From: Actinomycetota bacterium
Lineage (GTDB): Bacteria > Actinomycetota > Nitriliruptoria > Nitriliruptorales > Nitriliruptoraceae
Assembly: GCA_019347575.1 (NCBI GenBank)
Contig: JAHWKY010000004.1
Coordinates: forward strand, 62,001-126,000
Direction: 5' to 3'
Length of the DNA stretch: 64,000 bases
In this document: piece after piece, positions 3,369 to 64,000 of the stretch
Layout: each line of letters starts with the position of its first letter
How positions within the stretch are numbered: the first letter of the stretch is position 1
The notes under the pieces: model-generated
What the model was told of the DNA's origin: nothing
The model's database searches: none
Seen by the model: only the letters and a program-made list of their open reading frames with translations
Program-made: the position numbers and the translations under genes

Positions 3369-3719
3369 GTGGTCGGCAACGGTGACCGCTCGACTGCGCT
3401 GGCTGAAGAGCTGAGCGATCTGGGGTTCGTCCGTCAGGGTGAGTCTCGGCGTGGCGGCACGATGTGGGAACTGGTGTTCAACTCCTACCTCACGTTCACG
3501 CTGCACGACTACGGGGACCACGTGGTGCTGACCTGGCGCTTCGAACTCGGCGACTACCTCCTCACACGCGGCCTGCAGGTCGGTGCCGGCGAGACGAGCT
3601 TCCAGGAGCTGTACCCGCAGCGGGACAGCCGATTGGAGCGCGAGCCCGACGCGCTCCGTGCTGAGATCACCCGCGTGCTCTCGACCCTCCGTTTCGACCT
3701 CGCCGATCCCGCGCTCTGA
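3369..3719 (+). CDS. Hypothetical protein, about 116 aa
   Basis: A small soluble protein with no recognised family. I choose GTG 3369 because GAGGAG lies 5-6 bases upstream; the open frame continues further upstream only as antisense to the lipoprotein and kinase. The centre (MWELVFNSYLTFTLHDYGDH, then a V-V-L-T-W-R-F-E-L stretch) looks like antiparallel beta-strands, and the C-terminus contains a charged helix ending LADPAL. It is divergent to the lipoprotein gene and is followed by the TPP riboswitch, so it probably forms its own unit. Confidence 0.6.
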   Translation: MVGNGDRSTALAEELSDLGFVRQGESRRGGTMWELVFNSYLTFTLHDYGDHVVLTWRFELGDYLLTRGLQVGAGETSFQELYPQRDSRLEREPDALRAEITRVLSTLRFDLADPAL

Positions 3720-11312: not shown

Positions 11313-11357
11313 TTGACCACCACCGGGTCGGCGAGTACGGTCTCGAACACATGTTCG
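11313..11357 (+). promoter_or_regulatory. Promoter with LexA (SOS) box for DUF6504
   Basis: TTGACC at 11313-11318, a 17-base spacer and TACGGT at 11336-11341 form a good promoter. The perfect palindrome CGAACACATGTTCG at 11344-11357 begins two bases later, over the expected transcription start. It matches the GAAC-N4-GTTC LexA box of actinobacteria and Bacillus. Repressor binding there would block transcription until DNA damage. Confidence 0.9.
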
Positions 11358-11385
11358 GTCAGGCCACGATCGAGACACTTGCTCC

Positions 11386-11670
11386 GTGACCAAGCGCTAC
11401 CGAGAACAGCTCGAGGACGTCGAACTGGCGCCCGACGGTGTGACCCCTGCCGGGTTCCGCTGGCGTGGTCGCTGCTACCGCGTGGAACGCGTCCTCGGGC
11501 ACTGGCGCGAGGACCCAGGGTGGTGGCGCCGCCCCGATGGCGAACCTATCCGCATCGAGCAGGCCGACCTCTGGCGGGTCGAGGCCCGCAACGGGGTGCC
11601 CGGCCACGGGGTGTACGAGCTGGTCCAGCGCGCCGATGCCGGCTGGCGGCTCGAACGGGTCTGGGACTGA
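11386..11670 (+). CDS. DUF6504 protein, SOS-controlled
   Basis: A 94-residue protein matching DUF6504, small actinobacterial proteins often found beside Y-family polymerase or dnaE2 genes. Typical features: a PAGFRWRGRCYRVERVLGHW segment, a WWRRP motif, LWRVEARNG and a final GWRLERVWD, all Trp/Arg-rich strands that could contact DNA or a polymerase. The start is GTG 11386, 28 bases after a perfect LexA box. The nearest mutasome genes, dnaE2 and dinB, are 5.7 and 11.8 kb downstream and carry the same box, so it is a strong candidate accessory factor of SOS mutagenesis. The molecular role is unknown. Confidence 0.85.
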   Translation: MTKRYREQLEDVELAPDGVTPAGFRWRGRCYRVERVLGHWREDPGWWRRPDGEPIRIEQADLWRVEARNGVPGHGVYELVQRADAGWRLERVWD

Positions 11671-11747
11671 CCCACTCCGAGCAGGAGGCGCAGGGGGCCG
11701 CGTCGAAGCTCCCTTCTGGCATCCCTCGGCCATCCTGGAGGCAGTCC

Positions 11748-14186
11748 GTGCACGCACATCCGCGCCTCAGCGAGATCGCAGCCCTCGTGACCACGCTGCT
11801 CGTCCTCGCGAGCGCCCTCGTGGCACTCACGATCGGCGGTGACGGCCTCACCGCTCCCGAGCGCCATTTGGCCGCCCAACGCCCCGTCGGTGAACCCGCC
11901 TCCGACTGGTTCCTCAGCGCACGCGGCGGCGCCGACCTCGATCCTGCCGCCGGGACCCGAGCCCGAGCCGAGGCCGCTGACGCCCGACACCGCACCGCGG
12001 CGACGGACCCCGCGCTCGCCGAAGCGCCCTGGACCTGGCTCGGCCCCCAGAACATCGGTGGTCGTGTCCTCGACATCGCCCTCGATCCGGCCGGTACCGA
12101 CACCGTCTACGTCGCCACGGCTGGCGGCGGCGTGTGGAAGAGCACCGACGCCGGCGTCACGCTCGCTCCCAGCTGGCCGGATGTCGCACCGCAGGCGGTC
12201 GCAGCCATCGCGGCGGCGCCGGACGAGACCCTCTACGCCGGGACCGGCGAGCCGCCACCCGGTGGGGGATCGATCACCTGGGCTGGCGACGGCATCTACC
12301 GCTCCACGGACGGGGCGCAGACCTGGGAGAACATCGGACTGTCCGACTCGGGCACGATCAGCGAGATCGTCGTCGACTCCCGCGGCACGATCTGGGTGGC
12401 GTCGATGGGCCACGGCTTCGCCGAAGGTGGCGAGCGCGGGCTGTACCGCTCCGACGACGGCGGCGAGAGCTGGACCGTCGCGCTGGAGGCGCCCAACGGG
12501 CGGACCGGCGCCAGCGATATCGCCATCGACCCGGCCGATCCCGATCACCTCTTCGTGACGATGTGGCAGCGGATCCGCCTGCCCGACCGACGGCTGTACG
12601 GCGGCCCCGGCTCGACCGTGTGGGAGTCGCACGACGGCGGGGCGACCTGGGAGTCGGTCGATGCCATCACCGCTCAGGACTCGCGTCGTCAGCCCGGCCG
12701 CATCGCGCTGTCGTTCGCGCCCAGCGACGCGAGCAGGGTGTACGCCATCGTCGTCGACGACCTCGGCGGCTTCGACAGCTTCTACCGCTCCGATGACGGG
12801 GGAGCGACGTGGACGCAGACCGGTGACAGCTTCCTCGACACGTCGCAGTCGAGCTACGGCTGGTGGTTCGGTCGCATCTGGGTCGACCCCGACGAGCCCG
12901 ACGTGCTCTTCGCTGGAGGCGTGGACCTCGTGTGGTCGGATGACGGCGGCGACAGCTGGCTGCCGCAGTCCAGCACCATCGCTGGAGTCGTGACGGGAGT
13001 GACGGTCGTGAACCCCCACGCCGACCAGCACGACATGGTGTGGGACGAGCGCGTGCCGGGGCGCGTCTACCTCGCCAACGACGGCGGCCTCTACCGCAGC
13101 GACGCCGATGGCCGCCTCGACTGGAAGGGCGCGCTGCAGCAGGGGTTCACCCAGCACTACTCGGTCGGGGTGAGCCAACAGCAGCCCAGCCGCGTCGTCT
13201 CTGGGCTCCAGGACAACATGTGCCAGCGCAACTACGTCGCCGGTGACCTCGGCCAACCGCAGACCTGGACCAAGTACGGCCTGTGTGGCGACGGACTGCA
13301 GACGCTGATCCACCCCACCGACGACCGCATCGTCTACGGCTGCGCCCAGTACGGCGGCAACTGCTCACGGTCCGACGACGGCGGCGGGGCGTTCGCTTTC
13401 ATGAGGATCCCGGGCGACCGGCACAACTGGTGGGCGCCGATCGCGTTCGACCCGTCCGATCCGACGGTCATGTACGCGGGGTCCAACGTGGTGTCGCGTG
13501 GCGCGACCGCCGGCGGGGTCCGACCGGGACAGACCGGTTTCGCCGTGATCAGCCCCGACCTGACCTCGACGGCGGGCGGGGCGGAACAGCCCGACCCGCA
13601 GTACGAGTTCGGCACGATCACGACCCTGGCGGTAGCCCCCTCCGACGGCAACGTGCTGTACGTGGGGACCGACGAGGGCTGGCTCTGGCGGGGCGAGCTC
13701 GCGGGACCGCAGTGGGGCTGGGAGCGGATCGACACCGAGACCGACGTCCCCGAGGACGAGCGCGTCCTCCCCGACGGACTGTCGTGGGTGTCGCGGGTGG
13801 CGGTCGACCCGGGCGATGCCGACGTCGCCTACGCGACGTTCTCGCGCTACCGCAACGGCGAGGACACGCCGCTCGTGGTGAAGACGACCGACGGCGGCGC
13901 GAGCTGGACCGACATCACCGGCGACCTCCCCGACGCGCCGGTCAACGAGATCGTCGTGCTCGACGACAGCGCGCGCCTCGTCGTGGGAACCGACGTCGGG
14001 GTGTTCCTCTCCGACGACGGTGGCACGAGCTGGAAGGCGGTCGGGACGGGGCTCCCCACGAGCCCGGTGCTCGACATCGCCACGCATACGAGCACCGATC
14101 TGCTCAGCGGGGCGAGCACCACCTACTTGACCGCCGCCACCTTCGGTCGCGGCATCATGCGCGTCGCCCTCCCGTCGGCGGAGTAG
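11748..14186 (+). CDS. Exported Asp-box (BNR/sortilin-like) beta-propeller protein
   Basis: An 812-residue secreted or membrane-anchored protein. I choose GTG 11748 because GGAGG (11737-11741) lies six bases upstream and the next 33 residues form a signal anchor (LVTTLLVLASALVALTIGG). The open frame further upstream is out-of-frame DUF6504 and leader. The body is made of propeller blades with at least eight Asp-box motifs (SDDGGESW, SHDGGATW, SDDGGATW, SDDGGDSW, TTDGGASW, SDDGGTSW and variants). It begins with WTWLGPQNIGGRVLDIALDP, the usual entry of VPS10/sortilin-like bacterial propellers. No sialidase active-site set is apparent; a binding or scaffold role is more likely than a hydrolase. 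Confidence 0.88.
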   Translation: MHAHPRLSEIAALVTTLLVLASALVALTIGGDGLTAPERHLAAQRPVGEPASDWFLSARGGADLDPAAGTRARAEAADARHRTAATDPALAEAPWTWLGPQNIGGRVLDIALDPAGTDTVYVATAGGGVWKSTDAGVTLAPSWPDVAPQAVAAIAAAPDETLYAGTGEPPPGGGSITWAGDGIYRSTDGAQTWENIGLSDSGTISEIVVDSRGTIWVASMGHGFAEGGERGLYRSDDGGESWTVALEAPNGRTGASDIAIDPADPDHLFVTMWQRIRLPDRRLYGGPGSTVWESHDGGATWESVDAITAQDSRRQPGRIALSFAPSDASRVYAIVVDDLGGFDSFYRSDDGGATWTQTGDSFLDTSQSSYGWWFGRIWVDPDEPDVLFAGGVDLVWSDDGGDSWLPQSSTIAGVVTGVTVVNPHADQHDMVWDERVPGRVYLANDGGLYRSDADGRLDWKGALQQGFTQHYSVGVSQQQPSRVVSGLQDNMCQRNYVAGDLGQPQTWTKYGLCGDGLQTLIHPTDDRIVYGCAQYGGNCSRSDDGGGAFAFMRIPGDRHNWWAPIAFDPSDPTVMYAGSNVVSRGATAGGVRPGQTGFAVISPDLTSTAGGAEQPDPQYEFGTITTLAVAPSDGNVLYVGTDEGWLWRGELAGPQWGWERIDTETDVPEDERVLPDGLSWVSRVAVDPGDADVAYATFSRYRNGEDTPLVVKTTDGGASWTDITGDLPDAPVNEIVVLDDSARLVVGTDVGVFLSDDGGTSWKAVGTGLPTSPVLDIATHTSTDLLSGASTTYLTAATFGRGIMRVALPSAE

Positions 14187-14283
14187 CCCACCCGCCCTCC
14201 GCCATGGCCGACGCGCCCCGTGACGGGAGCGCGCGTGGAGGCGTGTTCGCGTCAGCCTGGCTCGGCGGGACGGAGGCTGCGGC

Positions 14284-14556
14284 TCAGGAAGCCACCGCCT
14301 CCCAGAGCGACTCCTCGCGGACCGAGACGATCGGGCTCGTGGTGAACCCGGGCCCGTCGAAGGAGTGGCAGTGCAGCCGCAAGCCGACCGAGCCGGGGAC
14401 GATCTCCACCCGGTCGAAGTCGGCCACGAACGCCATCGGGCCGGCGGTGCCTCGGACGGGATGATCGCTGACGCGGGTCACACGGACGCGTCTACCGTCC
14501 GGTGCGCTGCTCACCAGGTAGGTCGAGGAGTTCTCGGTCTCGATCCGAAGCAGCAC
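14284..14556 (-). CDS. Hypothetical protein, 90 aa
   Basis: A small protein of unknown family, starting at GTG 14556 with GGAGGG six bases upstream on the minus strand. The sequence alternates polar and hydrophobic residues (LLRIETENSSTYLV, RVRVTRVSDHP, VGLRLHCHSFDG), suggesting a small beta-barrel. It has no export signal or membrane segment. It stands alone between two large exported proteins on the other strand. Confidence 0.65.
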   Translation of the reverse strand: MLLRIETENSSTYLVSSAPDGRRVRVTRVSDHPVRGTAGPMAFVADFDRVEIVPGSVGLRLHCHSFDGPGFTTSPIVSVREESLWEAVAS

Positions 14557-14753
14557 GTGGCACCCTCCGCCGGACGGTCCATCGTCGCACGCTGGGCCAC
14601 CTCATGGCAACGGCACGGAGCGGCGTAGCCGTGGGACTCGTGCCGGGCGTGGTTCCCGCTCCGTCGGGCGGGGACGGGCACGGCTTCGGATGACTTCCGG
14701 CGGTGGGGGCGAGGTGACCGTTACCTTCTCGGTCCGTCGTATCGAGGGTCTGG

Positions 14754-16877
14754 GTGCGGGCAACGGCAGGGCGGTTGGGGCTCGTCGTCGCGGTGTTGAC
14801 CGCGGCGCTCGTCCCCGTGCCACGGCTCGTCCCCGTGGCCCCGGCGGTCGCGGACAGCGCGCCGTCGATCCACACGCCCCGCCCGATGCCGGGCTCGATC
14901 GTGCCCACCGGTGAGCTTCTGTTGCGCGTGACGACGCAGTCCGATGCCGACACCGCCACCGTCGAGCTGTCCCTCGACGGGCGACCGGTCGTCGTGGCCC
15001 GCGGCGAGCGGGACCCCGACGGCGCTGCCTACGCGAGCGCGACGGTCACCGTGGCGCCCGGCCCCCACGAGGCGAGCGCGACGTTCACGGATACGGCGGG
15101 GCGACGGGTCCAGCGATCCTGGTCGTTCGTGGCTACCGACGTGACCGTGCGGCGCCACGCCGGACCGACACGGCTCGAGACGGCCGTCGCGATCAGCCGC
15201 GAGACGTTCCCTGAAGCGGGGAGCGCGTCCGCGGTCCTGCTCGCGAGGGCGGACGACTTCGCCGACGCCCTCGCGGGCGCCCCGCTGGCGGTGCACCTGG
15301 ATGCGCCCCTGCTGCTCACGGCGCGCGATGAGCTGGCCGAGGTCGCGCGCCAGGAGCTGCGACGCGTGCTGCCACTCGGCGGCACGGTCCACCTGCTCGG
15401 TGGCACGGAGGCCCTCTCGCGTGCGGTCGCGGACGACGTACGTGCGCTCGGCTACCTCGTCACCCGTCACGCAGGCGAGGACCGCTACGCCACCGCGGCG
15501 AGCATCGCCCGCGCCCTGCCGGGTACGGGCGGGGCTCTCATCGCGTCGGGTGTGTCGTTCCCGGACGCGCTGGCCGCGTCCGCTCCCGCGGCACGCGATG
15601 GCGTCCCCATCCTCCTCACGCGTCGCGACGAGCTGCCGCACGCGACGACCGAGGTGCTCGATGACCGCGGGGTGGCCGACCTGGTGGTCGTCGGTGGACC
15701 GGCGGTCGTGAGTGCCGCCGTCGAGGAGCAGCTCACGGACACGATCGAACGGGTCGAACGGGTCGCGGGGGCTGATCGCTACGCCACCGCCGTGGCGGTC
15801 CTCGCCCGCTACTACGACCGTCCCTCGGGTGTGTCCCTCGCGAGCGGGACCGACTTCCCCGACGCGCTCACCGGGACGCGTCACGCTGCCGCCCTCCGCC
15901 AGCCCCTGCTGTTGACGCCAGCCGACCACCCGGTAACCGCCACGGACGCAGCGCTCCGGGCGGTACGGCCCAGGCACCTCGACGTCTACGGCGGCGCGGT
16001 GGCCGTCACCGACGCCACCGCTGGCGCCAGCGTCCGCGCGGTGGTCGACGGTCCCGACGCTCCGCGCGTCGTCACAGCGACCCCGGTCGAGACCGACGAG
16101 GCCAGCTACCTCGAGCGCGTCACGGTGACGTTCGACCGGCCCGTCGACGTCGGGGCGTCGTCCGTCTACCTCGATGTCGGCGACCGCGAGATCGTGGGGG
16201 AGGTCGTCGGCGTCGACGAACGGACCCTACAGCTGCGCGTGCCCGGGGGAGTGGCGGGCCTGGAGCGCGAGCTCGCACACGCGGGGCGGGTCACGGTCGC
16301 GGGCGTCGGGGCGGGAGCGGTGGGGCACCACGACGTCGCGTTCACCTACCTCGAGCCCGATCCGTGGTTCGCCACCGTCGCTGGCGTCGACCTGCACCTG
16401 CCGTCGCGTCACGTCGAGATGATCGGCTACCACCAGTCCAGCCACGACGGGGCGAGGGAGCTCAGCCCGCGTGACACCGCCACCGCGCAGCTGACCCTCC
16501 CCAGCCGCGGACGCGGGACCGGCCGGCACACCGCAGCGGACATCGTCGCCGACCCCGAGCTCGCGGTGTACTCGCCGGTGGACGGCGTCGTCGTCCGTGC
16601 CGGGACCTACCGCCTCTACTGCGACCACTACGACCACTACCTCGTCATCGAGCCCGACGCGCGCCCCGGCTACGAGGTCAAGCTGCTGCACTTCGAGGGC
16701 CTGGCCGTCGCGACCGGCGACCGGGTCGAGGCCGGGATCACGCAGGTCGGCTCGGCGCCCCGCACGCTGCCGTTCGAGTCGCAGGTCGACGAGTACTCCG
16801 GCCCCGACGCCTGGCCCCACGTCCACGTCGAGGTCGTGGACACCGCGATCCCCGATCGGGGCGGGGGCGGCTGCTGA
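14754..16877 (+). CDS. CWB2-repeat cell-wall protein with C-terminal M23-like domain
   Basis: A 707-residue exported protein. A signal peptide covers about residues 1-33. Residues 35-125 form an Ig-like region. Three cell-wall-binding type 2 repeats follow (about 130-430), each with the R-x-x-T-A/Y-A-T-A start, e.g. RLETAVAISRETFP, RYATAASIARALP, RYATAVAVLARYY, and with DDFADALAGAPLA-type centres. A strand-rich region leads to a C-terminal domain (about 545-700) that resembles M23/LytM peptidases (YSPVDGVVVRAGTY and a late HVHVEV). The first zinc-ligand motif H-x4-D is not obvious, so it may be inactive. It probably binds wall polymers. The start GTG 14754 has GAGGG six bases upstream. Confidence 0.88.
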   Translation: MRATAGRLGLVVAVLTAALVPVPRLVPVAPAVADSAPSIHTPRPMPGSIVPTGELLLRVTTQSDADTATVELSLDGRPVVVARGERDPDGAAYASATVTVAPGPHEASATFTDTAGRRVQRSWSFVATDVTVRRHAGPTRLETAVAISRETFPEAGSASAVLLARADDFADALAGAPLAVHLDAPLLLTARDELAEVARQELRRVLPLGGTVHLLGGTEALSRAVADDVRALGYLVTRHAGEDRYATAASIARALPGTGGALIASGVSFPDALAASAPAARDGVPILLTRRDELPHATTEVLDDRGVADLVVVGGPAVVSAAVEEQLTDTIERVERVAGADRYATAVAVLARYYDRPSGVSLASGTDFPDALTGTRHAAALRQPLLLTPADHPVTATDAALRAVRPRHLDVYGGAVAVTDATAGASVRAVVDGPDAPRVVTATPVETDEASYLERVTVTFDRPVDVGASSVYLDVGDREIVGEVVGVDERTLQLRVPGGVAGLERELAHAGRVTVAGVGAGAVGHHDVAFTYLEPDPWFATVAGVDLHLPSRHVEMIGYHQSSHDGARELSPRDTATAQLTLPSRGRGTGRHTAADIVADPELAVYSPVDGVVVRAGTYRLYCDHYDHYLVIEPDARPGYEVKLLHFEGLAVATGDRVEAGITQVGSAPRTLPFESQVDEYSGPDAWPHVHVEVVDTAIPDRGGGGC

Positions 16878-16882
16878 CGGAC

Positions 16883-17026
16883 TGGCGAGCGCCCCGTCTT
16901 GACGACAACGCGCATCCACGCGTGTTTGCGTCACGGCCTGGCAGTGGCGAGCGCCCCGTCTTGACGACAACGCGCATCCACGCGTGTTTCCGTCACGGCC
17001 TGGCCGTGCAAGCGCCCCGGTTGACG
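16883..17026. repeat. 62-bp tandem repeat, about 2.3 copies
   Basis: Two nearly identical units (16883-16944 and 16945-17006) and a shortened third (17007-17026) fill most of the gap between the CWB2 gene and dnaE2. Each full unit contains AGCGCCCCGTCTTGACGAC and the hairpin ACGCG-CATCCA-CGCGT. The third copy stops just after TTGACG (17021-17026), which may serve as the -35 element of dnaE2. The hairpins could also end transcription from the CWB2 gene. Confidence 0.85.
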
Positions 17027-17042
17027 CGCGGGACCAGGGCAG

Positions 17043-17056
17043 CGAACATACGTTCG
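17043..17056 (+). promoter_or_regulatory. LexA (SOS) box of dnaE2
   Basis: A perfect palindrome CGAACATACGTTCG, 34 bases before the dnaE2 ATG. A TTGACG at 17021-17026 lies 18 bases before the weak -10 candidate AACATA, so the box overlaps the probable -10 region. It indicates repression by LexA and induction by DNA damage, as known for dnaE2 in mycobacteria. Confidence 0.92.
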
Positions 17057-17090
17057 ACCAACGTCGCCCCGACCCCGCCGAGCCCCCAGC

Positions 17091-20000
17091 ATGCGTCGTG
17101 CCACCCGCACCCCCGCCCCGCAGGAGGCGGAGGAGGATCGCGAGGAGCGTCTCGTCGAGGCGCGACGGGCCGCCGAGGCGGCGGAGGCGGTCCGTCAGCG
17201 CGGAGCAGGTGGTGGGCGTCTCCCACCGTTCGCGCACCTGGCGGTGCGGACCTGCTTCTCGCTGCGCGACGGAGCCATCCGACCACGTGAGCTCGCGGCG
17301 GCCACCGCGGCCGGCGGCATGACCCACGTGGCCATCACCGACCGCGACGGGCTCTACGGGGCGGTCCGCTTCGCGCAGGCGTGCCAGGTCGAGGGCGTCA
17401 CGCCGGTGTTCGGTACCGATCTGGCACTGCGCCCCGACCTCGAGCGCCCCGGCTGGGCCATCACCCGCGCCGGCCGACACCGCCTCCCCACCGGCCACGG
17501 CCCGCAAGGATGGGTGGATGACGCGGCATCCCGCGCCAACCACGCATCCTCGCGCGACGATCCGCGCGCGCGGCGTCCCGCCAGCGGACCGGCGTGGCTC
17601 GAGGACGACGCCCCGCGGATCACCCTGCTCGCTCGGACGCAGCAGGGGTACGGCGACCTGTGCCGCGCGGTCACCGCTGCCCACCTCGGTGCGGAGCGGT
17701 CCTCGCCGCATCTGGCCTGGGAGGACGTCCCCCGCGCGGCGGCACGCCAGGGGTGCTACCTGCTCCTCGGGGTCGACTCGCCGGTGGGGCGGCTGCTGTC
17801 GGCGGGGTTCGAGGAGGCGGCGCGTGACGAGCTGGCGCGCTGGATCGAGGTGTTCGGTCGGGGCGCGGTCCTGCTGGGCGTGCGCAACTGGCTCGAACGC
17901 GGTGACGACCGTCGCACCACCCGCACCCTGCGTCTGGCCGACGACGTCGAGGTGACCCCGGTCGCGATCAACGACGTGCGCTACCTCGTCGCGGAGGACG
18001 TCTTCGTCGCCGACGTGCTGGCGTGCATCCGCAACCAGGTCCCGCTCGGCAAGCACCACCTGGGACGCCGAACCGCCGAGGGCTGGTTCAAGACCACCGC
18101 GGACCTCGCCCCGCTGTTCGCCGAGCGCCCCGACGTGCTGAGCAACACCCAGCGCATCGCCGAGACCTGCGACGTGGACCTCGGCCTGGGCGAGCTGCAC
18201 GTGCCGCGCCTCACCGGCTTGTCGGATGAGGTGGCGGCCGGGGAACTGCACCGCCGGTGCTGGCAGGGAGTCGCGGGGCGCTACCCCCGGCTGACCCCGG
18301 CGATCCGTGAACGGCTCGAGCGCGAGCTGGCCATGGTGGACCGGCTGGGCCTGCACGACTACTTCCTGACCGCCGCCGAGGTGGTCGCCGGCATCCGGGA
18401 CATGGGGGTGCTGTCCGCGTGCCGCGGGTCGGCGGCGGGGAGCCTGGTCTGCTACGCGCTACGCATCAGCGACGTCGATCCGGTCGGCAACGGGCTGATG
18501 TTCGAGCGCTTCATGAACCCCTACCGCGACGAGCTGCCGGATATCGACATCGACGTCGAGTCCTCCCGGCGCGAGGACGTCTACCGCATGATCATGGCGC
18601 GCTACGGCGAGCAGCGCACGGCGTGCGTCGCGATGGTGGAGACCTTCCAGGCACGTATGGCCATCCGGGAGGTCGGCAAGGCGCTCGGGCTGCCGCCCGA
18701 CGAGATCGACGTCATCGCCAAGAGCTTCACCCGCACTCGCGCTCGGGACGTGCGTCAGATGCTCCGACGCGCCCCGGAGCTCGCCCGCGCCAACCTCGAT
18801 GCCGGTCAGCTCGAGCGCCTCTTCGACGTCGTCGAGCGCATCGACGGCTTCCCGCGACACCTCGCGCTGCACCCCTGCGGGATCCTGCTCGCCGACACCC
18901 ACCTGCAGGACCGCACCGCTCTCGAGCGCTCCGCTCCCCGTGGTCCCGACGACGACGGCTTCGTGATGAGCCAGTTCGACAAGGACGACGTCGCGGCTCT
19001 CGGGCTGCTCAAGCTCGACATCCTCGCGGTGCGGCTGCTCAGCTCGATGGCCCACACGGTCGAGCTGCTGCGGCACACCCGTGACGTCGACCTCGACCTG
19101 TCCGAGGTCTCCGACGACGACCCCGAGACCTACGAGCTGCTGCGGTCGACCCGCTCGATCGGGGTCTTCCAGGTGGAGTCCCCGGGCCAGCGCGAGCTGC
19201 TGGGACGGCTGCAGCCCGACCGCTTCGGTGACCTCATCGTCGAGATCTCGCTGTTCCGGCCAGGCCCCGTCAAGGGCGACATGGTCAACCCGTTCGTGTC
19301 CCGTCGGCACGGCGAGGAACAGGTCGTCTACCCCCACCCCTCGCTCGAGCCCGTGCTCGCCGAGACGCACGGGGTGATCGTCTACCACGAGCAGGTCATG
19401 GGGGTGATCGCCGCCATGACCGGGTGCGACCTCAGCTACGCCGACCTGATCCGCCGCCAGCTCGGTGACCACCAGCGGCACGCGGCGCTGCGGGCGTGGA
19501 GCATCGGCCGGGCGGTCGAGCGCGGTTTCGCCCGCCCCGTCGCCGAGCACATCTGGCACCAGCTCCTCCAGTTCGCCTCCTTCGGGTTCTGCAAGGCCCA
19601 CGCTGCGGCGTTCGCCGTGCCGACCTACCGCTCGGCCTGGCTCAAGACCCACTACCTGCCCGAGTTCGTCGCCGGCTTGTTGACCCACGATCCGGGCATG
19701 TACCCGCGCCGGCTGCTACTCGACGAGGCGCGCATGTTCGGGGTCGCGGTGCTGCCTCCGGACGTCAACCGCTCCGAGAGCGCCTACACCGTCGAGGTCG
19801 TCGATCAGGGACTCGCCGACCACCTGCTGAGGTTGCGTGCCGATCACCTCCCACCAGGCTGGCGCGCCCCGACGCCGAGCGAGCCCACCGACCGTCCCGT
19901 CCCACCCGGAGGCTGGGACGCGGGCGACGCCGGCCACGGCTACCGCTACGCGGTCCGTATCGGTCTGCAGGATCTGAAGGGGATCACCGACACCGAGATC

Positions 20001-20792
20001 GGTTCACTCGTGCAGCAGCGACCGTTCACCTCGTTGATCGACCTGCGTCGCCGCGCCGCGCTGTCCCGCCCCACCGCCGAACGCCTCGTGGACGCCGGCG
20101 CGGTGGACCAGCTCGCCGGGGTGGGACGTCGGAGCGGACCGGACCGCCGCCGCGTCCGCCTCGCGGTCGAGGAGCTGTGGTCGGGGGTCGGCCGCAAGCT
20201 CCCACCTCCTGACGCGCCGCAGCAGGAAGCGCTCGCGCTCGATGCCGACCACGACCCGCAATTGCCTGCACCCAGCCACGCCGATCTCGTCCGTGAGGAG
20301 CTCGCGGTGCTGGGGCTGGACGTGACGCGTCACGTCCTGTCGTTCTACGAGCCCCTCCTCGAGCACCTGGGCGTCATCCGCAGCTCGGACCTGGCCGGGG
20401 CGCGGGAGTGGGAGCGGGTCCGGGTCGCCGGTGTGAAGGTGGCGGTTCAGTCGCCCCCGGTGAAGTCGGGCCAGCGGGTGCTGTTCCTCACGCTCGACGA
20501 CCGCACCGGCGCCCCTCAGGTCACGTTCTTCGAGCGCGTCCTCGGGGACTGCGCCTGGACGCTGCTCCACGCGTGGCTGCTCCTGTGCGAGGGCCGGATC
20601 CGACGCCGCGGTCCCAAGGGTGTGACCGTCAACGGCGATCGGGTGTGGGATCTGTCGCGGTTGTGGCGAGCTTGGCACGAGGGCTGGCTACCCGACGCGC
20701 TCGGCGAGCACGGCACCCCGGCACCCCACGAACGCCCCGCGAGCCGCCCCGTCGGCCTGACGGCGGCCGAGTTCGGCCGCGGCAGTGCCTGA
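17091..20792 (+). CDS. dnaE2: Error-prone DNA polymerase III alpha subunit DnaE2
   Basis: A translesion replicative-type polymerase of the SOS response. It has 1233 residues, longer than the usual roughly 1080: a 40-residue charged N-terminal helix and a Pro/Arg-rich insertion near 120-165 account for most of this. The palm has Asp484 and Asp486 in LPDIDIDVESSRRE, followed by FQARMAIREVGKALGLP. Finger motifs and QFASFGFCKAHAAAFAVPTY are intact; a helix-hairpin-helix (GLQDLKGITDTEIG) and an OB fold (VRVAGVKVAVQSPPVKSGQR) follow. The PHP domain is degenerate: HLAVRTCFSLRDG replaces the H-L-H-x-H-T metal-binding motif, so proofreading is unlikely. No imuA or imuB is adjacent. Confidence 0.95.
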   Translation: MRRATRTPAPQEAEEDREERLVEARRAAEAAEAVRQRGAGGGRLPPFAHLAVRTCFSLRDGAIRPRELAAATAAGGMTHVAITDRDGLYGAVRFAQACQVEGVTPVFGTDLALRPDLERPGWAITRAGRHRLPTGHGPQGWVDDAASRANHASSRDDPRARRPASGPAWLEDDAPRITLLARTQQGYGDLCRAVTAAHLGAERSSPHLAWEDVPRAAARQGCYLLLGVDSPVGRLLSAGFEEAARDELARWIEVFGRGAVLLGVRNWLERGDDRRTTRTLRLADDVEVTPVAINDVRYLVAEDVFVADVLACIRNQVPLGKHHLGRRTAEGWFKTTADLAPLFAERPDVLSNTQRIAETCDVDLGLGELHVPRLTGLSDEVAAGELHRRCWQGVAGRYPRLTPAIRERLERELAMVDRLGLHDYFLTAAEVVAGIRDMGVLSACRGSAAGSLVCYALRISDVDPVGNGLMFERFMNPYRDELPDIDIDVESSRREDVYRMIMARYGEQRTACVAMVETFQARMAIREVGKALGLPPDEIDVIAKSFTRTRARDVRQMLRRAPELARANLDAGQLERLFDVVERIDGFPRHLALHPCGILLADTHLQDRTALERSAPRGPDDDGFVMSQFDKDDVAALGLLKLDILAVRLLSSMAHTVELLRHTRDVDLDLSEVSDDDPETYELLRSTRSIGVFQVESPGQRELLGRLQPDRFGDLIVEISLFRPGPVKGDMVNPFVSRRHGEEQVVYPHPSLEPVLAETHGVIVYHEQVMGVIAAMTGCDLSYADLIRRQLGDHQRHAALRAWSIGRAVERGFARPVAEHIWHQLLQFASFGFCKAHAAAFAVPTYRSAWLKTHYLPEFVAGLLTHDPGMYPRRLLLDEARMFGVAVLPPDVNRSESAYTVEVVDQGLADHLLRLRADHLPPGWRAPTPSEPTDRPVPPGGWDAGDAGHGYRYAVRIGLQDLKGITDTEIGSLVQQRPFTSLIDLRRRAALSRPTAERLVDAGAVDQLAGVGRRSGPDRRRVRLAVEELWSGVGRKLPPPDAPQQEALALDADHDPQLPAPSHADLVREELAVLGLDVTRHVLSFYEPLLEHLGVIRSSDLAGAREWERVRVAGVKVAVQSPPVKSGQRVLFLTLDDRTGAPQVTFFERVLGDCAWTLLHAWLLLCEGRIRRRGPKGVTVNGDRVWDLSRLWRAWHEGWLPDALGEHGTPAPHERPASRPVGLTAAEFGRGSA

Positions 20793-20799
20793 TGTTGGT

Positions 20800-20819
20800 G
20801 ACGCCGCATCCGAGGCGTC
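20800..20819 (+). terminator. Hairpin after dnaE2
   Basis: GACGCC and GGCGTC enclose the loop GCATCCGA seven bases after the dnaE2 stop. A nearly identical hairpin follows the DUF3040 gene at 26922. There is no T-run, which is common in actinobacteria; a terminator or 3'-end stabiliser are both possible. Confidence 0.6.
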
Positions 20820-20895
20820 GTCGGGCACTAGTCAGTACGAGCGGTCCCTGTCGACGTCTCTCAACTCGCGGATCGCGATGCCGACGTAGGTGGGG

Positions 20896-22302
20896 ATGAC
20901 ACGGCCCAACGACGTCGACCGCGCGGACGCCGCCCGCGTCATCGAGCCGATGCCGGATACCGACGTCGATGGGCACCGCCGCGACCTCGAGCGGCGTGAC
21001 CGCATCCTGCAGGCGGTGGCCTACGCGGCCGGTCGGCTGCTGCGTGGCGGCGATTGGGAGCGGGATGTCGACGCCGCGCTGACGTGCCTCGGCGAGGCGA
21101 CGGGGGTCAGCCGCGTCTACGTGTTCGAGAACGCCCGAGGTCCAGGTGGCGAGGTCGTCACGTCCTACCGGTTCGAGTGGACCGCGCCCGGCATCGAGCC
21201 CCAGATCGACCATCCCGCCCTCCAAGCTCTGCCCTACGAGACGATGGGGTTCGGCCGGTGGGCGCGGGAGCTGTCGCAGCAGCGCGCCATCCACGGCGAC
21301 GTGAACGATCTCCCGACCCAGGAGCAGGCCCTGCTGCGTGAGCAGCACATCCGCTCGATCATCTGCGTGCCGATCTTCCTCGCGGGGCGGTGGTGGGGGT
21401 TCATGGGCTTCGACGAGTGCGTGACCGACCGGCGGTGGTCGGAGCCGGAGGTCGACGCTCTGCGCGTGGCTGCGGACGTGCTGGGCGCCGCCATGCAACA
21501 GCAGCGCGCCCGGGAAGCACTCCTGCACTCGCGTCAGGCCTACGCGTCGGCGTACCAACGTGAGCGCGAGGCGGTCGAGAGGCTGCGACGTCTCGATGAC
21601 ATGAAGGACAGCTTCCTCGAGGCCGTGTCCCACGAGTTGCGGACGCCGCTCGCCGGGGTGCTGGGTCTGGCCGAGACGGTGCGTCAGCACCTCGACCGCC
21701 TGCCGCCTGAGCAGGTCCAGCAACTGACGACGCGCATCGCCGCGAACGCGCGCCGCCTCGACCGCATGCTCGCGAACCTGCTCGACGTCAGCCGATTGCA
21801 GCGCGGCACCCTGACGGCGAAGCGGACCTGGGTCGGGGCGGCGGACTTCGTGCGCGATGTCGTGCGCGAGTGCGACGTTATCGATGGCCGCGAGGTCGTG
21901 ATCGACGTCCAGGTCGACCGTCTCCACGTCGACCCAGCGCAGGTCGAGCGCATCCTGGACAACCTGCTCCGCAACGCTGTGCGCCACGGAGCCGACGACG
22001 AACCGGTGTGGATCCGGGTCGAGGCGGTGGGCGACGACGATGTCATGCTCGTCGTCGAGGATGCGGGTGAGGGCGTCCCCGACGAGTACAAGCGGTTGGT
22101 GTTCCAGCCGTTCGAGCGCGGTCCCGGGGTGGAGCGACACCGACCCGGTACCGGCATCGGTCTCGCCCTCGTCGCGCGGCTGGCGAGCCTGCACGGCGGC
22201 CGGGCGTGGATCGAGGACCGCGAGGGGGGCGGAGCGTCGGTCCGCGTCCGCTTCGATGCCGCCCGCCTGTCCGGTCAGGTCGAACCGGTCCGTACCTTCT
22301 GA
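20896..22302 (+). CDS. GAF-domain sensor histidine kinase, orphan
   Basis: A soluble two-component sensor of about 468 residues. A GAF domain spans about 40-190 (VSRVYVFENARG, SIICVPIFLAGRWWGFMGFDEC). A short coiled coil leads to the dimerisation helix with the phosphorylated His246 in FLEAVSHELRTPLAGVLGL. The ATPase domain is complete: N-box NLLRNAVRHGADD, G1 VEDAGEGVPDEY, F-box FQPFERG and G2 GTGIGLALVARL. There is no membrane helix, so the signal is cytoplasmic. ATG 20896 has AGGTG four bases upstream; GTG 20890 is possible. No response regulator is adjacent. It sits between dnaE2 and dinB but has no LexA box. Confidence 0.92.
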   Translation: MTRPNDVDRADAARVIEPMPDTDVDGHRRDLERRDRILQAVAYAAGRLLRGGDWERDVDAALTCLGEATGVSRVYVFENARGPGGEVVTSYRFEWTAPGIEPQIDHPALQALPYETMGFGRWARELSQQRAIHGDVNDLPTQEQALLREQHIRSIICVPIFLAGRWWGFMGFDECVTDRRWSEPEVDALRVAADVLGAAMQQQRAREALLHSRQAYASAYQREREAVERLRRLDDMKDSFLEAVSHELRTPLAGVLGLAETVRQHLDRLPPEQVQQLTTRIAANARRLDRMLANLLDVSRLQRGTLTAKRTWVGAADFVRDVVRECDVIDGREVVIDVQVDRLHVDPAQVERILDNLLRNAVRHGADDEPVWIRVEAVGDDDVMLVVEDAGEGVPDEYKRLVFQPFERGPGVERHRPGTGIGLALVARLASLHGGRAWIEDREGGGASVRVRFDAARLSGQVEPVRTF

Positions 22303-22333
22303 CCTCCCGGGGCAGCGTCACCACGGTCGTGGA

Positions 22334-23035
22334 TCAGATCTCCGCCAGCGTGATGGGTTCCACGCCTGCACCGAGGACGGGGTCGGTCGGTGCGGCAGGT
22401 GCGTCAGCGAAGCGCAGACCCATCGGCCCTGGTGGCGTGCCCTGACGGATCCGTAGCTCCAGCGGCGCGTCCTCCCACCACACCCGCAGGCCCTCGTCGA
22501 CCGGATCGACCGTCGCGCCCAGCCGTCGCCAGAGGTCGCCGGCCTCGTCGAGGTGCGGATGCTGTAGTCGTGGACCGACCAGCGTCGCGCCGCGCTCTGG
22601 TGGCGGATCCGGATCGCGAGGTGAGCGTGCCGACCAGGCGATCTGCACCACCCAGCCACCGACCTGTGAGGGGCGCAGGAAAGCCTCGTGCCAACGGGTG
22701 TCCTGGCGGATGTCGACCACGTCGAACCCCTCGGCTCGGAGGTGGCTGACCGCTTCCAGTAGGTCAGGCACGAGGAGGGTGATGTGGTGCACGCCCGCCC
22801 CGAACCGGTCGAGGAAGCCGGTGACGAAGCCTGCGGGCTGGGGAGGCGTCGGCTCGACTAGTTCGAGCTTGCCCCCTCCGCGGTAGCGGTACTGCTTCGT
22901 CGTGAAGCCGCGTCCGCTGTCGTACTGGCCGCACTGCACCCCCCCGAGCTGGTCGCGCCACCGGGGGAGGGCAGCATCGATCGACGGCACCGCCACGGCG
23001 ACGTGGTCGGGACGCGTCACGAGTGGCCGGGCCAA
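22334..23035 (-). CDS. VOC (glyoxalase-like) family protein
   Basis: A 233-residue protein with two vicinal-oxygen-chelate modules. The first (about residues 8-135) begins RPDHVAVAVPSIDAALPRW and contains GKLELVEPTPPQ and GAGVHHITLLVPDLLEAVSHL, giving possible metal ligands His11, Glu and His. The second (about 150-225) is shorter (GATLVGPRLQHPHLDEAGDLWRRLG). The pattern resembles methylmalonyl-CoA epimerase or dioxygenase-like VOC proteins; the substrate cannot be assigned. TTG 23035 has GAGGAG nine bases upstream; GTG 23020 is the alternative and fits the conserved start better. It is divergent from dinB. Confidence 0.8.
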   Translation of the reverse strand: MARPLVTRPDHVAVAVPSIDAALPRWRDQLGGVQCGQYDSGRGFTTKQYRYRGGGKLELVEPTPPQPAGFVTGFLDRFGAGVHHITLLVPDLLEAVSHLRAEGFDVVDIRQDTRWHEAFLRPSQVGGWVVQIAWSARSPRDPDPPPERGATLVGPRLQHPHLDEAGDLWRRLGATVDPVDEGLRVWWEDAPLELRIRQGTPPGPMGLRFADAPAAPTDPVLGAGVEPITLAEI

Positions 23036-23093
23036 CCGGGGGTGCTCCTCGTCGCAGCCGGGTCACCGTAGAGGTGCGACTCCCTTCGACCGC

Positions 23094-23118
23094 TACCCTG
23101 CGCACGAACAGGTGTTCG
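23094..23118 (+). promoter_or_regulatory. -10 element and LexA (SOS) box of dinB
   Basis: TACCCT at 23094-23099 is a likely -10 element, and the perfect palindrome CGAACAGGTGTTCG at 23105-23118 covers the expected start of transcription. The geometry equals that of the DUF6504 promoter. No good -35 is visible at 17 bases. Confidence 0.9.
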
Positions 23119-23147: not shown

Positions 23148-24383
23148 GTGGAGCGTCCCGCGGAGTCGATCCTCCACGCCGACATGGACGCCTTCTACGC
23201 CTCGGTCGAGCAGCGCGACGACCCCTCGTTGCGCGGCCGCCCCGTCGTGGTCGGGGGAGCCGGTACGCGTGGTGTCGTCGCCGCGGCCAGCTACGAGGCA
23301 CGACGGTTCGGGATCCACTCCGCGATGCCGATGGTGCGCGCGCGCCGGTTGTGTCCATCACTGGTGGTCGTGCCGCCGGACTTCCGCCGCTACCGCGACG
23401 CCTCCGACGAGGTGATGCGCGTGTTCCGATCGGTCACGCCGCTGGTGGAGCCGCTGTCGCTCGACGAGGCGTTCCTCGACGTGACGGGTGCCGTGCGGCT
23501 CTTCGGTCCCCCACGTGCCATCGCCGACCGCATCCGCGCCGAGGTCCGCGCCAGCGTCGATCTGCCTTGCTCCATCGGGATCGCACCGAACAAGTTCCTC
23601 GCCAAGCTGTGCTCGGCCAAGGCGAAGCCGGATGGCGTGCTGCATCTCCACGTCGACGAGGTCGAGGCGTTCCTCCGCCCTCTCCCGGTCAGCGACCTGT
23701 GGGGCGCCGGCCCGAAAACGGTCGAGCGCCTGCGCAGCTACGGCTTCCGTAGCGTGGGCCAGCTCGCCGATTGCGACCTGCGCACCCTCCAGCGCGTCCT
23801 CGGCGATGCCACCGGCAGCCACCTGTACCGGCTCGCGCAGGGTCGGGATGCCCGTGCCGTCGTGCCCGACGAGGCGGCCAAGAGCGTCTCGGCGGAGGAG
23901 ACGTTCGATGAGGACATCGACGATCCGGCGCTGCTGCGCACGCTCATCCTCGGTCTCGCCGAGCGGGTCGGGCGGCGGCTGCGTGCATCCGGCCTCGCGG
24001 GCAGGACGGTCACGCTCAAGGTCAGGTTCGCGACGTTCGACACGATCACGCGCTCGTCGACCCTCGACCTGCCCACCGACCGGACCCACGACGTGGCCGA
24101 CCTCGCTCGCGAGCTGTTCGATGGGTTGCGACTCGAGCGTGTCCGGGTCCGTCTGCTCGGCGTCGGGGTCTCCAACCTCACCGACGGTGATGCGGCCCGT
24201 CAGCTCTCGCTCGACGCGGACCCCCGCTGGGAGGATCTTGAACGCGCCAGCGACCTGGCCCGCGACCGGTTCGGGGGCGCGGCGGTCACGTTCGCATCGC
24301 TGCTCGACCACGAGCAGGAGCTTCGTTCATCCAACCGCGATGATCTTCGCGACCTGGATCGGGACTCAGGAGACGAACGGTAG
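23148..24383 (+). CDS. dinB: DNA polymerase IV (Y family)
   Basis: A translesion polymerase of 411 residues. GTG 23148 is chosen: GAGG lies eight bases upstream, and the earlier in-frame GTG (23112) is inside the LexA box. Catalytic residues are intact: Asp12 in HADMDAFYASVEQ, Asp106-Glu107 in SLDEAFLDV. Other Y-family motifs are SYEARRFGIHSAMPM, CSIGIAPNKFLAKLCSAKAKP and the helix-hairpin-helix LWGAGPKTVERLRSYGFRSV. The little-finger domain (KSVSAEETFDEDI onward) is complete. The C-terminus is acidic and lacks a clear beta-clamp peptide. It is SOS-controlled together with dnaE2 and DUF6504. Its last 18 bases overlap the convergent Cys-rich gene. Confidence 0.96.
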   Translation: MERPAESILHADMDAFYASVEQRDDPSLRGRPVVVGGAGTRGVVAAASYEARRFGIHSAMPMVRARRLCPSLVVVPPDFRRYRDASDEVMRVFRSVTPLVEPLSLDEAFLDVTGAVRLFGPPRAIADRIRAEVRASVDLPCSIGIAPNKFLAKLCSAKAKPDGVLHLHVDEVEAFLRPLPVSDLWGAGPKTVERLRSYGFRSVGQLADCDLRTLQRVLGDATGSHLYRLAQGRDARAVVPDEAAKSVSAEETFDEDIDDPALLRTLILGLAERVGRRLRASGLAGRTVTLKVRFATFDTITRSSTLDLPTDRTHDVADLARELFDGLRLERVRVRLLGVGVSNLTDGDAARQLSLDADPRWEDLERASDLARDRFGGAAVTFASLLDHEQELRSSNRDDLRDLDRDSGDER

Positions 24384-25091: not shown

Positions 25092-25144
25092 GCGCGTGAG
25101 CCTTGGAGCGGAGCGGGTCGGACGGCACGAGCGTACCTAGTTCT

Positions 25145-25302
25145 GTGCTACCGCTTCGCTGCTCGAGCACGGTTCTCGTGCTACCGCTTCGCTGCTCGAG
25201 CACGGTTCTCGTGCTACCGCTTCGCTGCTCGAGCACGGTTCTCGTGCTACCGCTTCGCTACTTGAGCACGGTTCTCGTGCTACCGCTTCGCTACTTGAGC
25301 AC
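25145..25302 (-). repeat. Five tandem copies of the 26-nt hairpin repeat
   Basis: Copies at 25145-25170, 25178-25203, 25211-25236, 25244-25269 and 25277-25302, exactly 33 bases apart, with the same 7-base spacer GGTTCTC between them. Copies 1-3 differ from 4-5 at three internal positions (GCTGCTCGAG against GCTACTTGAG on the plus strand). They read forward on the minus strand, ahead of the Cys-cluster gene, and lie between two divergent genes. Identical short spacers exclude a CRISPR array. Confidence 0.95.
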
Positions 25303-61362: not shown

Positions 61363-64000
61363 GTGGGGACCGTTACGACCGCCCAGGATCCCGACCAGCC
61401 GGGCGGGCCCTCGGAACCGTTCGTCCACCTGCACGTCCACACCGAGTACTCGATGCTGGACGGAGCGTCGCGCATCGACGAGCTCATCGGGGCGGTCGCC
61501 GCGGCCGGGCAGCCGGGGGTCGCGATCACCGACCACGGGGTGCTGTTCGGGCTCGTGGACTTCTACGAGACCGCCACGGCCGCAGGCGTCAAGCCCATCC
61601 TCGGATGCGAGCTGTACCAGGCTCCTCGCTCACGGCACGACCGCGCCGCCCGCTCGAGCGGCGGCGACCCCTACTACCACCTGGGTGTCCTGGCGATCGA
61701 CGATGCCGGTTACCGCAACCTGGTGCAGTTGTCCACGAAGGCCTACCTCGAAGGCATGTGGTACAAGCCGCGCATCGACCGCGAGCTGCTGGCGCAGCAC
61801 AACGAGGGGCTGGTCGTCCTGTCCGGTTGCCTCGGTGCCGAGGTCAACCAGCACCTGCTGCACGACGACCGGTCCGCGGCGCGGCAGGCCATCGGCGAGT
61901 TCGTCGACATCTTCGGGCGAGATCGCTTCTTCGTCGAGCTGCAGGACCACGGGATCCCGGAGCAGCAGCGCACGAACCCGCTCCTCATCGAGCTCGCTCG
62001 CGACTTCGGTCTTCGGCTCGTCGCCACCAACGACACGCACTACACCGCTCCTGAGGACGCCGAGGCTCACGATGCCCTGCTGTGCATCCAGACCAACGCG
62101 CAGATCGACGATGAGGATCGGTTCCGCTTCAAGGGCAGCGACTTCTACCTCAAGTCGGCCGCGGAGATGCGTCAGCGGTTCCGCGAGATCCCCGAGGCCT
62201 GCGACAACACCCTCCTGATCGCCGAGATGGCGGACGCGAGGCTCGAGTTCGGGCTCGACCTGTTGCCGGCGTTCCCCTGTCCCGACGGGATGGACGAGGC
62301 TGCGTACCTGCGCCACACGGTCTACGAGGGCGCGCGACGCCGTTACGGCGATCCCCTGCCCTCCGAGGTGGCTGACCGTCTCGAGCACGAGCTCCGGGTC
62401 ATCGTGCAGATGGGCTTCCCGGCCTACTTCCTGATCGTCGCCGACCTCTGCGACCACGCCCGCGCCAACGGGATCCGTGTCGGCCCCGGCCGCGGCTCCG
62501 CGGGCGGCAGCGCCGTGGCGTACTGCACCGGCATCACGAACATCGACCCCATCGAGTACGGCCTGATCTTCGAGCGCTTCCTGAACCCGGAGCGCATCTC
62601 GATGCCCGATATCGACATGGACTTCGACGATCGGCGCCGGGCCGAGGTGATCCACTACGCGGCCGAGAAGTACGGTCACGACCACGTGGCGCAGATCGTC
62701 ACGTTCGCCACCATCAAGGCCAAGTCCGCCATCCGTGACGCTGCCCGCGTCCTCGGCTACCCGTTCCAGGTCGGCGACAAGCTGTGCAAGGCGATGCCGC
62801 CGCCGGTCCTCGGCAAGGAGCCGCCGCTCGAGCAGGCCTTCGAGCACTCCGCCGAGCTCCGCGACGCCTACGAGGCTGACCCCGACGCGCGGCGCGTGCT
62901 CGATACCGCCAAGAAGCTCGAGGGCCTCCGCCGGCAGCACGGCATCCACGCGGCCGCGGTCGTCATCGGGGCACGACCGCTCACCGAGACGGTGCCGCTG
63001 CTGAAGACCGACCGCGACGAGATCGTCACGCAGTACGAGATGGGGGCGGTTGAGGCCATCGGCCTGCTGAAGATGGACTTCCTCGGCCTGCGCAACCTGA
63101 CCGTCATCTCCGACACCGAAAGGCACATCCGCGACAACCGCGGGATCGAGGTGGACGTCGATGGCGGTCTAGCGCTCGACGATGCCGCCGCCTTCGAGAT
63201 GCTCGCGCGGGGCGAGACGCTCGGGGTGTTCCAGCTCGACAGCTCCGGCATGCAGAGCCTGGTGCGCCTGATGAAGCCCGACAGCTTCGATGACATCATG
63301 GCGCTCGTTGCGCTCTACCGACCGGGTCCTCTGGGCGAGCACATGCACGTCGAGTACGCCGAGCGCAAGCACGGCCGCAAGGAGGTCGTGTACGACCATC
63401 CCGATCTCGAGCCGATCCTGGCCGAGACCTACGGGATCATCGTCTACCAGGAGCAGGTGCTCCGGATGGCCGTCGACATCGCCGGGTACACGATGGGTGA
63501 GGCCGACAAGCTGCGCAAGGCCATGGGGAAGAAGGACCCCGAGGTCATGGCCCAGCAGCGCAGCAAGTTCGTGGACGGTGCTGTCGCGAAGGGCTACGAG
63601 CGTCCGTTCGCGACCCAGCTGTTCGACCAGATCGAGAGGTTCGCCGGGTACGGCTTCAACAAGTCGCACTCGTGCGGCTACGGCCTGGTCGCGTACCAGA
63701 CGGCGTGGCTCAAGGCCAACTACCCGGTCGAGTACATGGCGGCGCTGCTCACGTCGGTCAAGAACAACAAGGACCGTCTCCCCCTGTACCTCAACGAGTG
63801 CCGCCGGATGGGCATCACCGTCCTGCCGCCCGATGTCAACGAGTCCGACGTGGACTTCTCGCCCCGCGGCGAGCAGATCCGGTTCGGGCTCTCCGCCGTC
63901 CGCGGTATCGGCGAGACCGTCGTGGAGCAGATCATCGCGGCGCGGCGTGAGCACGGCCGGTTCGAGGGGTTCCGTGACTTCTGCGACAAGGTCGATGCGG
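61363..64000 (+). CDS. dnaE: DNA polymerase III alpha subunit DnaE1, 3' end beyond window
   Basis: Main replicative polymerase; 879 residues are visible, the OB and tau-binding parts are beyond the edge. I start it at GTG 61363, with GGAG seven bases upstream; an in-frame TTG at 61336 lies in a possible -35. The PHP domain is intact: FVHLHVHTEYSMLDGASRI and VAITDHGVLFG, the metal-ligand form absent from the dnaE2 of this window. Palm Asp416 and Asp418 are in MPDIDMDFDDRRRAEV; RQHGIHAAAVVIG, KMDFLGLRNLTVI, YRPGPLGEHMH and FAGYGFNKSHSCGYGLVAYQTAWLKANYPVEY follow. Confidence 0.96.
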   Translation, partial: MGTVTTAQDPDQPGGPSEPFVHLHVHTEYSMLDGASRIDELIGAVAAAGQPGVAITDHGVLFGLVDFYETATAAGVKPILGCELYQAPRSRHDRAARSSGGDPYYHLGVLAIDDAGYRNLVQLSTKAYLEGMWYKPRIDRELLAQHNEGLVVLSGCLGAEVNQHLLHDDRSAARQAIGEFVDIFGRDRFFVELQDHGIPEQQRTNPLLIELARDFGLRLVATNDTHYTAPEDAEAHDALLCIQTNAQIDDEDRFRFKGSDFYLKSAAEMRQRFREIPEACDNTLLIAEMADARLEFGLDLLPAFPCPDGMDEAAYLRHTVYEGARRRYGDPLPSEVADRLEHELRVIVQMGFPAYFLIVADLCDHARANGIRVGPGRGSAGGSAVAYCTGITNIDPIEYGLIFERFLNPERISMPDIDMDFDDRRRAEVIHYAAEKYGHDHVAQIVTFATIKAKSAIRDAARVLGYPFQVGDKLCKAMPPPVLGKEPPLEQAFEHSAELRDAYEADPDARRVLDTAKKLEGLRRQHGIHAAAVVIGARPLTETVPLLKTDRDEIVTQYEMGAVEAIGLLKMDFLGLRNLTVISDTERHIRDNRGIEVDVDGGLALDDAAAFEMLARGETLGVFQLDSSGMQSLVRLMKPDSFDDIMALVALYRPGPLGEHMHVEYAERKHGRKEVVYDHPDLEPILAETYGIIVYQEQVLRMAVDIAGYTMGEADKLRKAMGKKDPEVMAQQRSKFVDGAVAKGYERPFATQLFDQIERFAGYGFNKSHSCGYGLVAYQTAWLKANYPVEYMAALLTSVKNNKDRLPLYLNECRRMGITVLPPDVNESDVDFSPRGEQIRFGLSAVRGIGETVVEQIIAARREHGRFEGFRDFCDKVDA

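Follow-up and report, generated by a model that had tools for sequence, protein, structure and literature searches.

What does a small protein of the family DUF6504 do in the same DNA-damage regulon as two translesion polymerases? The question arises from a stretch of 64,000 nucleotides (the window) of a 4.89-Mb Nitriliruptoria genome (98.77% complete), in which the genes for a DUF6504 protein, the error-prone C-family polymerase DnaE2 and the Y-family polymerase DinB are each preceded by a LexA box. Comparison of these genes with their counterparts in a class set of 66 Nitriliruptoria genomes and a phylum sample of 396 Actinobacteria suggests that they probably encode, at separate places, the parts of a single SOS-induced translesion complex, which would replace the ImuA-ImuB-DnaE2 mutasome.

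A LexA box at each of three genes

The sequence CGAACN4GTTCG was found by pattern search exactly three times in the window, each time 5' of one of these genes: at 11344..11357 (CGAACACATGTTCG) before the DUF6504 gene, at 17043..17056 (CGAACATACGTTCG) before dnaE2, and at 23105..23118 (CGAACAGGTGTTCG) before dinB. All three genes thus share the box, as an earlier note on this DNA had claimed. Two other statements of that note do not hold. It reported no fourth copy in the window, where a further GAACN4GTTC site lies at 3468..3479 (GAACTGGTGTTC); the C and G at the two ends of the 14-mer are missing from it, and it is probably not a LexA box. The placement of the boxes at or just after -10 elements was dropped because a promoter scan around all three gave no sigma-70-type promoter at the scan threshold. 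Four GAACN4GTTC sites compare with 0.41 expected in the window, and 1 of 100 shuffles reached that number. In the whole genome, 25 places match the 14-mer, against 1 for a reversed-pattern control. Since the same 14-mer is present at lexA (two boxes), recA (one) and uvrA, it is taken as the LexA box of this genome.

DUF6504 and the C-terminal domain of ImuB

The DUF6504 gene (11386..11670, plus strand) has a GTG start codon 42 bp past the first base of its box and encodes a standalone protein of 94 residues, which matches Pfam PF20114 with 43.7 bits (cut-off 24.2). Pfam gives the family no function, NCBIfam has no match for the window protein, and a literature search found no paper that names DUF6504. 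Motifs of the protein include an N-terminal TKRYRE, a central WRG and HWRE, and a C-terminal W.LERVWD. An alignment of standalone members from 46 of the 52 DUF6504-bearing class genomes (fragments and odd N-termini excluded) shows conservation of TKRYRE at the N-terminus, F.WRG, GHWRE, DLWRVE, and W.LDRVWD at the C-terminus, with W87 and W93 invariant. The AlphaFold2 model is all-beta with nine strands (mean predicted local distance difference test score, pLDDT, of 89.9). A sequence search of the PDB returned chance matches only (best E 0.12). Foldseek with the model gave nothing at E 0.001 or better, and the best VIA-align hit (Z 6.5) was unrelated and nonspecific; from these two outcomes, no solved relative is seen.

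The protein has the traits of ImuB-C, a small domain of some 80 residues that is mostly beta-structured and has a conserved tryptophan at its C-terminus. ImuB-C was described in 2013 as able to stand alone as well (PMC3765255). With hhalign, a profile of 70 DUF6504 sequences matched the C-termini of 27 actinobacterial ImuB proteins with a score of 29.0 (E 2.1e-4), aligned up to the last ImuB residue; 200 column shuffles scored at most 18.3 and a reversed alignment 16.5. When seven sliding windows along ImuB were compared, the C-terminal one scored 23.9 and the other six 14 or less. A genome of the phylum sample (G291) encodes a 582-residue ImuB-like frame with a sub-cut-off PF20114 match in its C-terminal part; the frame is preceded by a LexA box and followed by a DnaE2 match. 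Because of the profile match at the ImuB C-terminus and this fused match, DUF6504 is, as judged from sequence comparison, the ImuB-C domain, a detached tail of ImuB. The earlier note had proposed a family of unknown function as a missing mutasome partner. The protein is very probably a mutasome component, though better seen as ImuB's tail set free than as a missing partner; the label of unknown function gives way to homology with ImuB-C.

The two polymerases

The dnaE2 gene (17091..20792, plus strand) encodes 1233 residues. Its best-scoring family is NF004225, at 737 bits and so under the cut-off of 939; a separate, ordinary DnaE1 gene lies near position 61600. In a tree of 27 DnaE2 and 3 DnaE1 sequences, the window DnaE2 clusters with DUF6504-linked sequences and with those of family f23 (which we infer to be Streptomyces); a support of 1.0 separates this group from the ImuAB-linked sequences. 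The window enzyme is therefore assigned to the B type (DnaE2B), found without ImuA and ImuB. One sequence (G389) is DnaE2B by score, yet is placed in the ImuAB clade of the tree. An imperfect direct repeat (GGCGAGCGCCCCGTCTTGACGACAACGCGC...), spotted by eye, occupies 16870-17010, just 5' of the dnaE2 LexA box.

The dinB gene (23148..24383, plus strand) is the only Y-family polymerase gene found in the genome. Its start is most likely the GTG at 23148; an alternative GTG at 23111 falls inside the LexA box. The catalytic D and DE are present, as they are in all 30 class loci of the Y-family polymerase (PolY), and the enzyme is apparently active. The DinB tail carries the motif QLSLDA (24201..24218, plus strand), which we take to be beta-clamp-binding-like, and a QLxL motif of this kind is present in all 28 complete PolY tails of the class. 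It is followed by a RecA-NT-like motif (RWEDLERASDLARDRFGGAAVT, 24225..24290, plus strand) of the type described in PMC6511836. This helix pattern, built by eye rather than as a profile, occurs in 27 of the 28 tails, and the remaining one (L122) fits by eye.

Absence of ImuA and ImuB and co-occurrence with DnaE2B

A search of the whole genome gave no match to ImuA' and did not find ImuB: the sole Y-family gene is DinB-like, the sole PF20114 protein is standalone, and the best hit of an ImuB-protein search (E 4e-10) has the size that DinB genes give. The absence of imuA and imuB stated by the earlier note is thus supported for the genome. Across the class set, DUF6504 is present in 52 of 66 genomes, and ImuA' in 5, the same 5 that have a divergent Y-family ImuB. 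No genome has both DUF6504 and ImuA'-ImuB (Fisher p 2.2e-4, phylogeny ignored). Nine have neither, and these were rejected as real absences in all but one case (G026), since the assemblies are broken or incomplete; the dnaE2 match starts at a contig edge in five (G044, G051, G054, G055, and G058), and three more (G017, G038, and G053) are incomplete or lack sequence.

In the phylum sample, DUF6504 is present in 104 of 396 genomes, including the fused G291. ImuB, in a set hand-picked among the matches listed, is present in at least 99, and both occur together in one genome among those matches, G386 (p 2.4e-14, ancestry ignored). DnaE2B, called at E <=1e-140 to the window DnaE2, was found in 91 genomes, 69 of which also have DUF6504 (p 1.7e-31, shared ancestry ignored). 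DnaE2B thus accompanies DUF6504 in 69 of the 104 DUF6504 genomes. Eighteen of the 22 DnaE2B genomes without DUF6504 belong to f23 and are large; a search of these 18 did not find DUF6504.

LexA boxes and gene order in relatives

All 52 class genomes with DUF6504 carry a box in the 500 bp upstream of the gene, perfect in 46 and with a single mismatch in 6. From the background of the same loci, which hold 4 perfect boxes in the 185 kb beyond these upstream regions, 0.56 of 52 loci would be expected to have a perfect box, and 3.8 of 52 one with no more than a single mismatch. Of the 76 DUF6504 loci outside the class, 47 were examined. All 27 with DnaE2B have a box (24 perfect), compared to 3 of the 19 standalone ones without DnaE2B (2 perfect), the remaining locus being the fused G291. 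Because 25 of the 47 loci are the best-scoring DUF6504s and the 19 are mainly weaker ones, family strength and DnaE2B are confounded in this comparison. A universal CGAACN4GTTCG box for DUF6504 was dropped on the basis of the 19. DUF6504 genes lacking LexA boxes elsewhere, which the earlier note had named as refuting its proposal, thus occur, among the loci examined, only in members without this type of DnaE2. Several boxless ones adjoin a lexA gene, the product of which may read another site, and in two of them (G103 and G179) a more distant DnaE2 adjoins DUF6504. A weaker DUF6504 subfamily (ERPRAFE...KKTWQEE) in family f25 (L260, L263, L269, L270, and L271) shows neither a polymerase nor a LexA-box match in the stretch that was read, and its function is perhaps different.

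Thirty class dnaE2 loci were read, 5 of them truncated at the 5' end. Among the 25 that could be assessed, dnaE2 has its own box in 20 (one with one mismatch) and lies directly behind a boxed DUF6504 in 4. The class Y-polymerase has a box within 500 bp in 23 of 30 loci (21 perfect); in the 7 boxless ones polY follows dnaE2 on the same strand, either closely or at a distance of 1-2 kb. Six of the 31 phylum loci read (G074, G102, G120, G150, G193, and G219) have box-DUF6504-dnaE2-polY collinear on one strand; in G074 and G150, DUF6504 and dnaE2 are separated by about 1 kb. Relatives, G042 and G045 among them, have DUF6504 adjoining dnaE2 behind a single box, and several class members have DUF6504 next to dnaE2 and not next to polY. 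In the window the genes are fully scattered: 5.4 kb lie between DUF6504 and dnaE2 and include a Sortilin/BNR-repeat gene (11745..14186) and a cell-wall-binding repeat 2/M23 peptidase gene (14754..16877), both on the plus strand and outside the module. A collinear operon may be the ancestral order, with LexA boxes following the genes as it broke up. Since the box is kept when the genes separate, it provides regulatory evidence, beyond neighborhood, that the three parts work together.

Proposed mechanism and alternatives

In the complex that we propose as probable, LexA bound to each observed box would repress the gene behind it, and upon damage RecA would trigger LexA cleavage, so that all three products would be made together. 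DinB would supply the Y-family body, and the two motifs observed in its tail would bind the clamp and RecA. The free ImuB-C beta domain may dock on the PHP domain of DnaE2 as the ImuB tail does in published models of the Mycobacterium tuberculosis complex (PMC12926913). DUF6504 would thereby couple DnaE2 to a clamp- and RecA-bound Y-polymerase. In relatives containing ImuB, one fused, inactive protein together with ImuA' would do the same work. A more specific version, which we offer tentatively, is a mutasome with two active polymerases. Free ImuB-C would be a detachable adaptor that seats active DinB and DnaE2 on RecA and the clamp, one inserting opposite the lesion and the other extending; ImuB would be a later fused and inactivated form, and the boxes would have been kept or acquired singly as a box-imuB-C-dnaE2-polY operon broke up.

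Several observations weigh against the proposed complex. The hhalign probability of the ImuB-C match is only 46%, and PF20114 gives no match in the two class ImuBs scanned; because Pfam reported none there, the link of these two tails rests on the profile comparison. The class member G026 (L138; 2.1 Mb) has boxed, adjacent dnaE2 and polY genes, and DUF6504 was not found in it, which looks like a real absence. The 489 bp available upstream of dnaE2 in G053 contain no box (1 of 25 loci). DnaE2B has no match at the threshold used in 35 of 104 DUF6504 genomes, and the Fisher p-values take no account of phylogeny. Finally, in some genomes DUF6504 is accompanied by lexA and a Y-polymerase alone, and it may therefore have partners besides DnaE2. 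A strict tie of DUF6504 to DnaE2 was dropped, as phylum loci without a DnaE2 match exist.

These last loci lead to the main rival, an unlikely one in our estimate, in which ImuB-C is mainly an accessory of the Y-polymerase, in the manner of small regulatory subunits such as UmuD' or YolD, and DnaE2 is merely co-regulated. Clusters of lexA-DUF6504-polY have no DnaE2 match in the stretch read in five genomes (G079, G105, G135, G173, and G191), and Geobacter has lexA-imuB-C-polY (PMC6511836). The case of G386 points the same way: its complete ImuB has its own DnaE2, and its DUF6504 gene, with a perfect LexA box, is near a DinB gene and away from the ImuB locus (L254, ~454591-454866 of contig C1). 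Against this rival, DUF6504 adjoins dnaE2 and not polY in several class members, DnaE2B is present in 69 of 104 DUF6504 genomes, and the published ImuB models seat ImuB-C on the DnaE2 PHP domain.

A damage-recognizing DNA-binding protein that acts as a general recruiter of repair enzymes, a role proposed for ImuB-C in 2013 (PMC3765255), would fit the conserved basic TKRYRE at the N-terminus. We consider it quite improbable, as the tight DnaE2B link and the near-exclusion with ImuB would not be expected of such a recruiter; as weak evidence, the structure search also showed no DNA-binding relative of solved structure. That the boxes are chance palindromes or sites of another regulator is scarcely credible, even though a number of the 25 genome copies adjoin genes without a known repair role, given the same box at lexA, recA, and uvrA and in all 52 class genomes with DUF6504.

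Other features of the window and genome

A GAF-domain histidine kinase gene (20890..22302, plus strand) lies between dnaE2 and dinB, with no role in the module indicated. Beyond dinB, a short tandem repeat (~25137-25270; the minus strand translates as CSSSEAVAREP) lies beside a DUF3109-like gene. Elsewhere in the genome, recA (L035:6-1313, minus strand, contig C2) is interrupted immediately behind the P-loop GPESSGK by an intein that contains a LAGLIDADG domain. A LexA-boxed gene (L069:5-1516, minus strand, contig C9) encodes a radical S-adenosylmethionine-like protein, presumably SplB/Rv2578c-like, with an intein-like insertion in the cysteine motif.

Comparison with known mutasomes

Standalone ImuB-C beside SOS genes has been described before (PMC6511836 and PMC3765255). 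In our literature search, ImuB-C, LexA, and Actinobacteria came together only in PMC6511836, and no paper linking Nitriliruptor and DnaE2 was found. What is new here is the identification of DUF6504 with ImuB-C, the Nitriliruptoria set, its replacement by ImuA'-ImuB within the class, and the survey of LexA boxes. Pfam DUF6504 thereby gains a concrete identity and a near-exclusive relation with ImuB. Consisting of a single Y-polymerase, a single DnaE2, and an adaptor of 94 residues, this naturally dissected system makes the role of ImuB-C in damage-induced mutation testable, and G026 may show whether the domain is dispensable.

Among known systems, the M. tuberculosis ImuA'-ImuB-DnaE2 mutasome resembles the window set in its SOS control, DnaE2, Y-family body, and ImuB-C domain. 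It differs in that here ImuA' and ImuB were not found, the catalytic residues are kept, ImuB-C is separate, and DnaE2 belongs to another clade. The lexA-imuB-C-polY operon of Geobacter sulfurreducens shares a standalone ImuB-C and an apparently active Y-polymerase under DNA-damage control, but unlike the window set it has no DnaE2 (PMC6511836). The DnaE2B-iPolY-RecA type of Streptomyces shares the DnaE2B clade, and its Y-polymerase is inactive (PMC12926913). The counterpart in composition is the putative DnaE2B-PolY-[ImuB-C]-RecA mutasome, exemplified by Tessaracoccus lapidicaptus and reported only from Actinobacteria (PMC12926913, Nucleic Acids Res. 2026), the main text of which contains neither "LexA" nor "Nitrilirupt". 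Both have a DnaE2 of the type without ImuA and ImuB, an apparently active PolY with a RecA-NT motif, and a standalone ImuB-C. The window set appears to fit this predicted mutasome, and differs from it in that its genes are scattered over 12 kb with one LexA box each.

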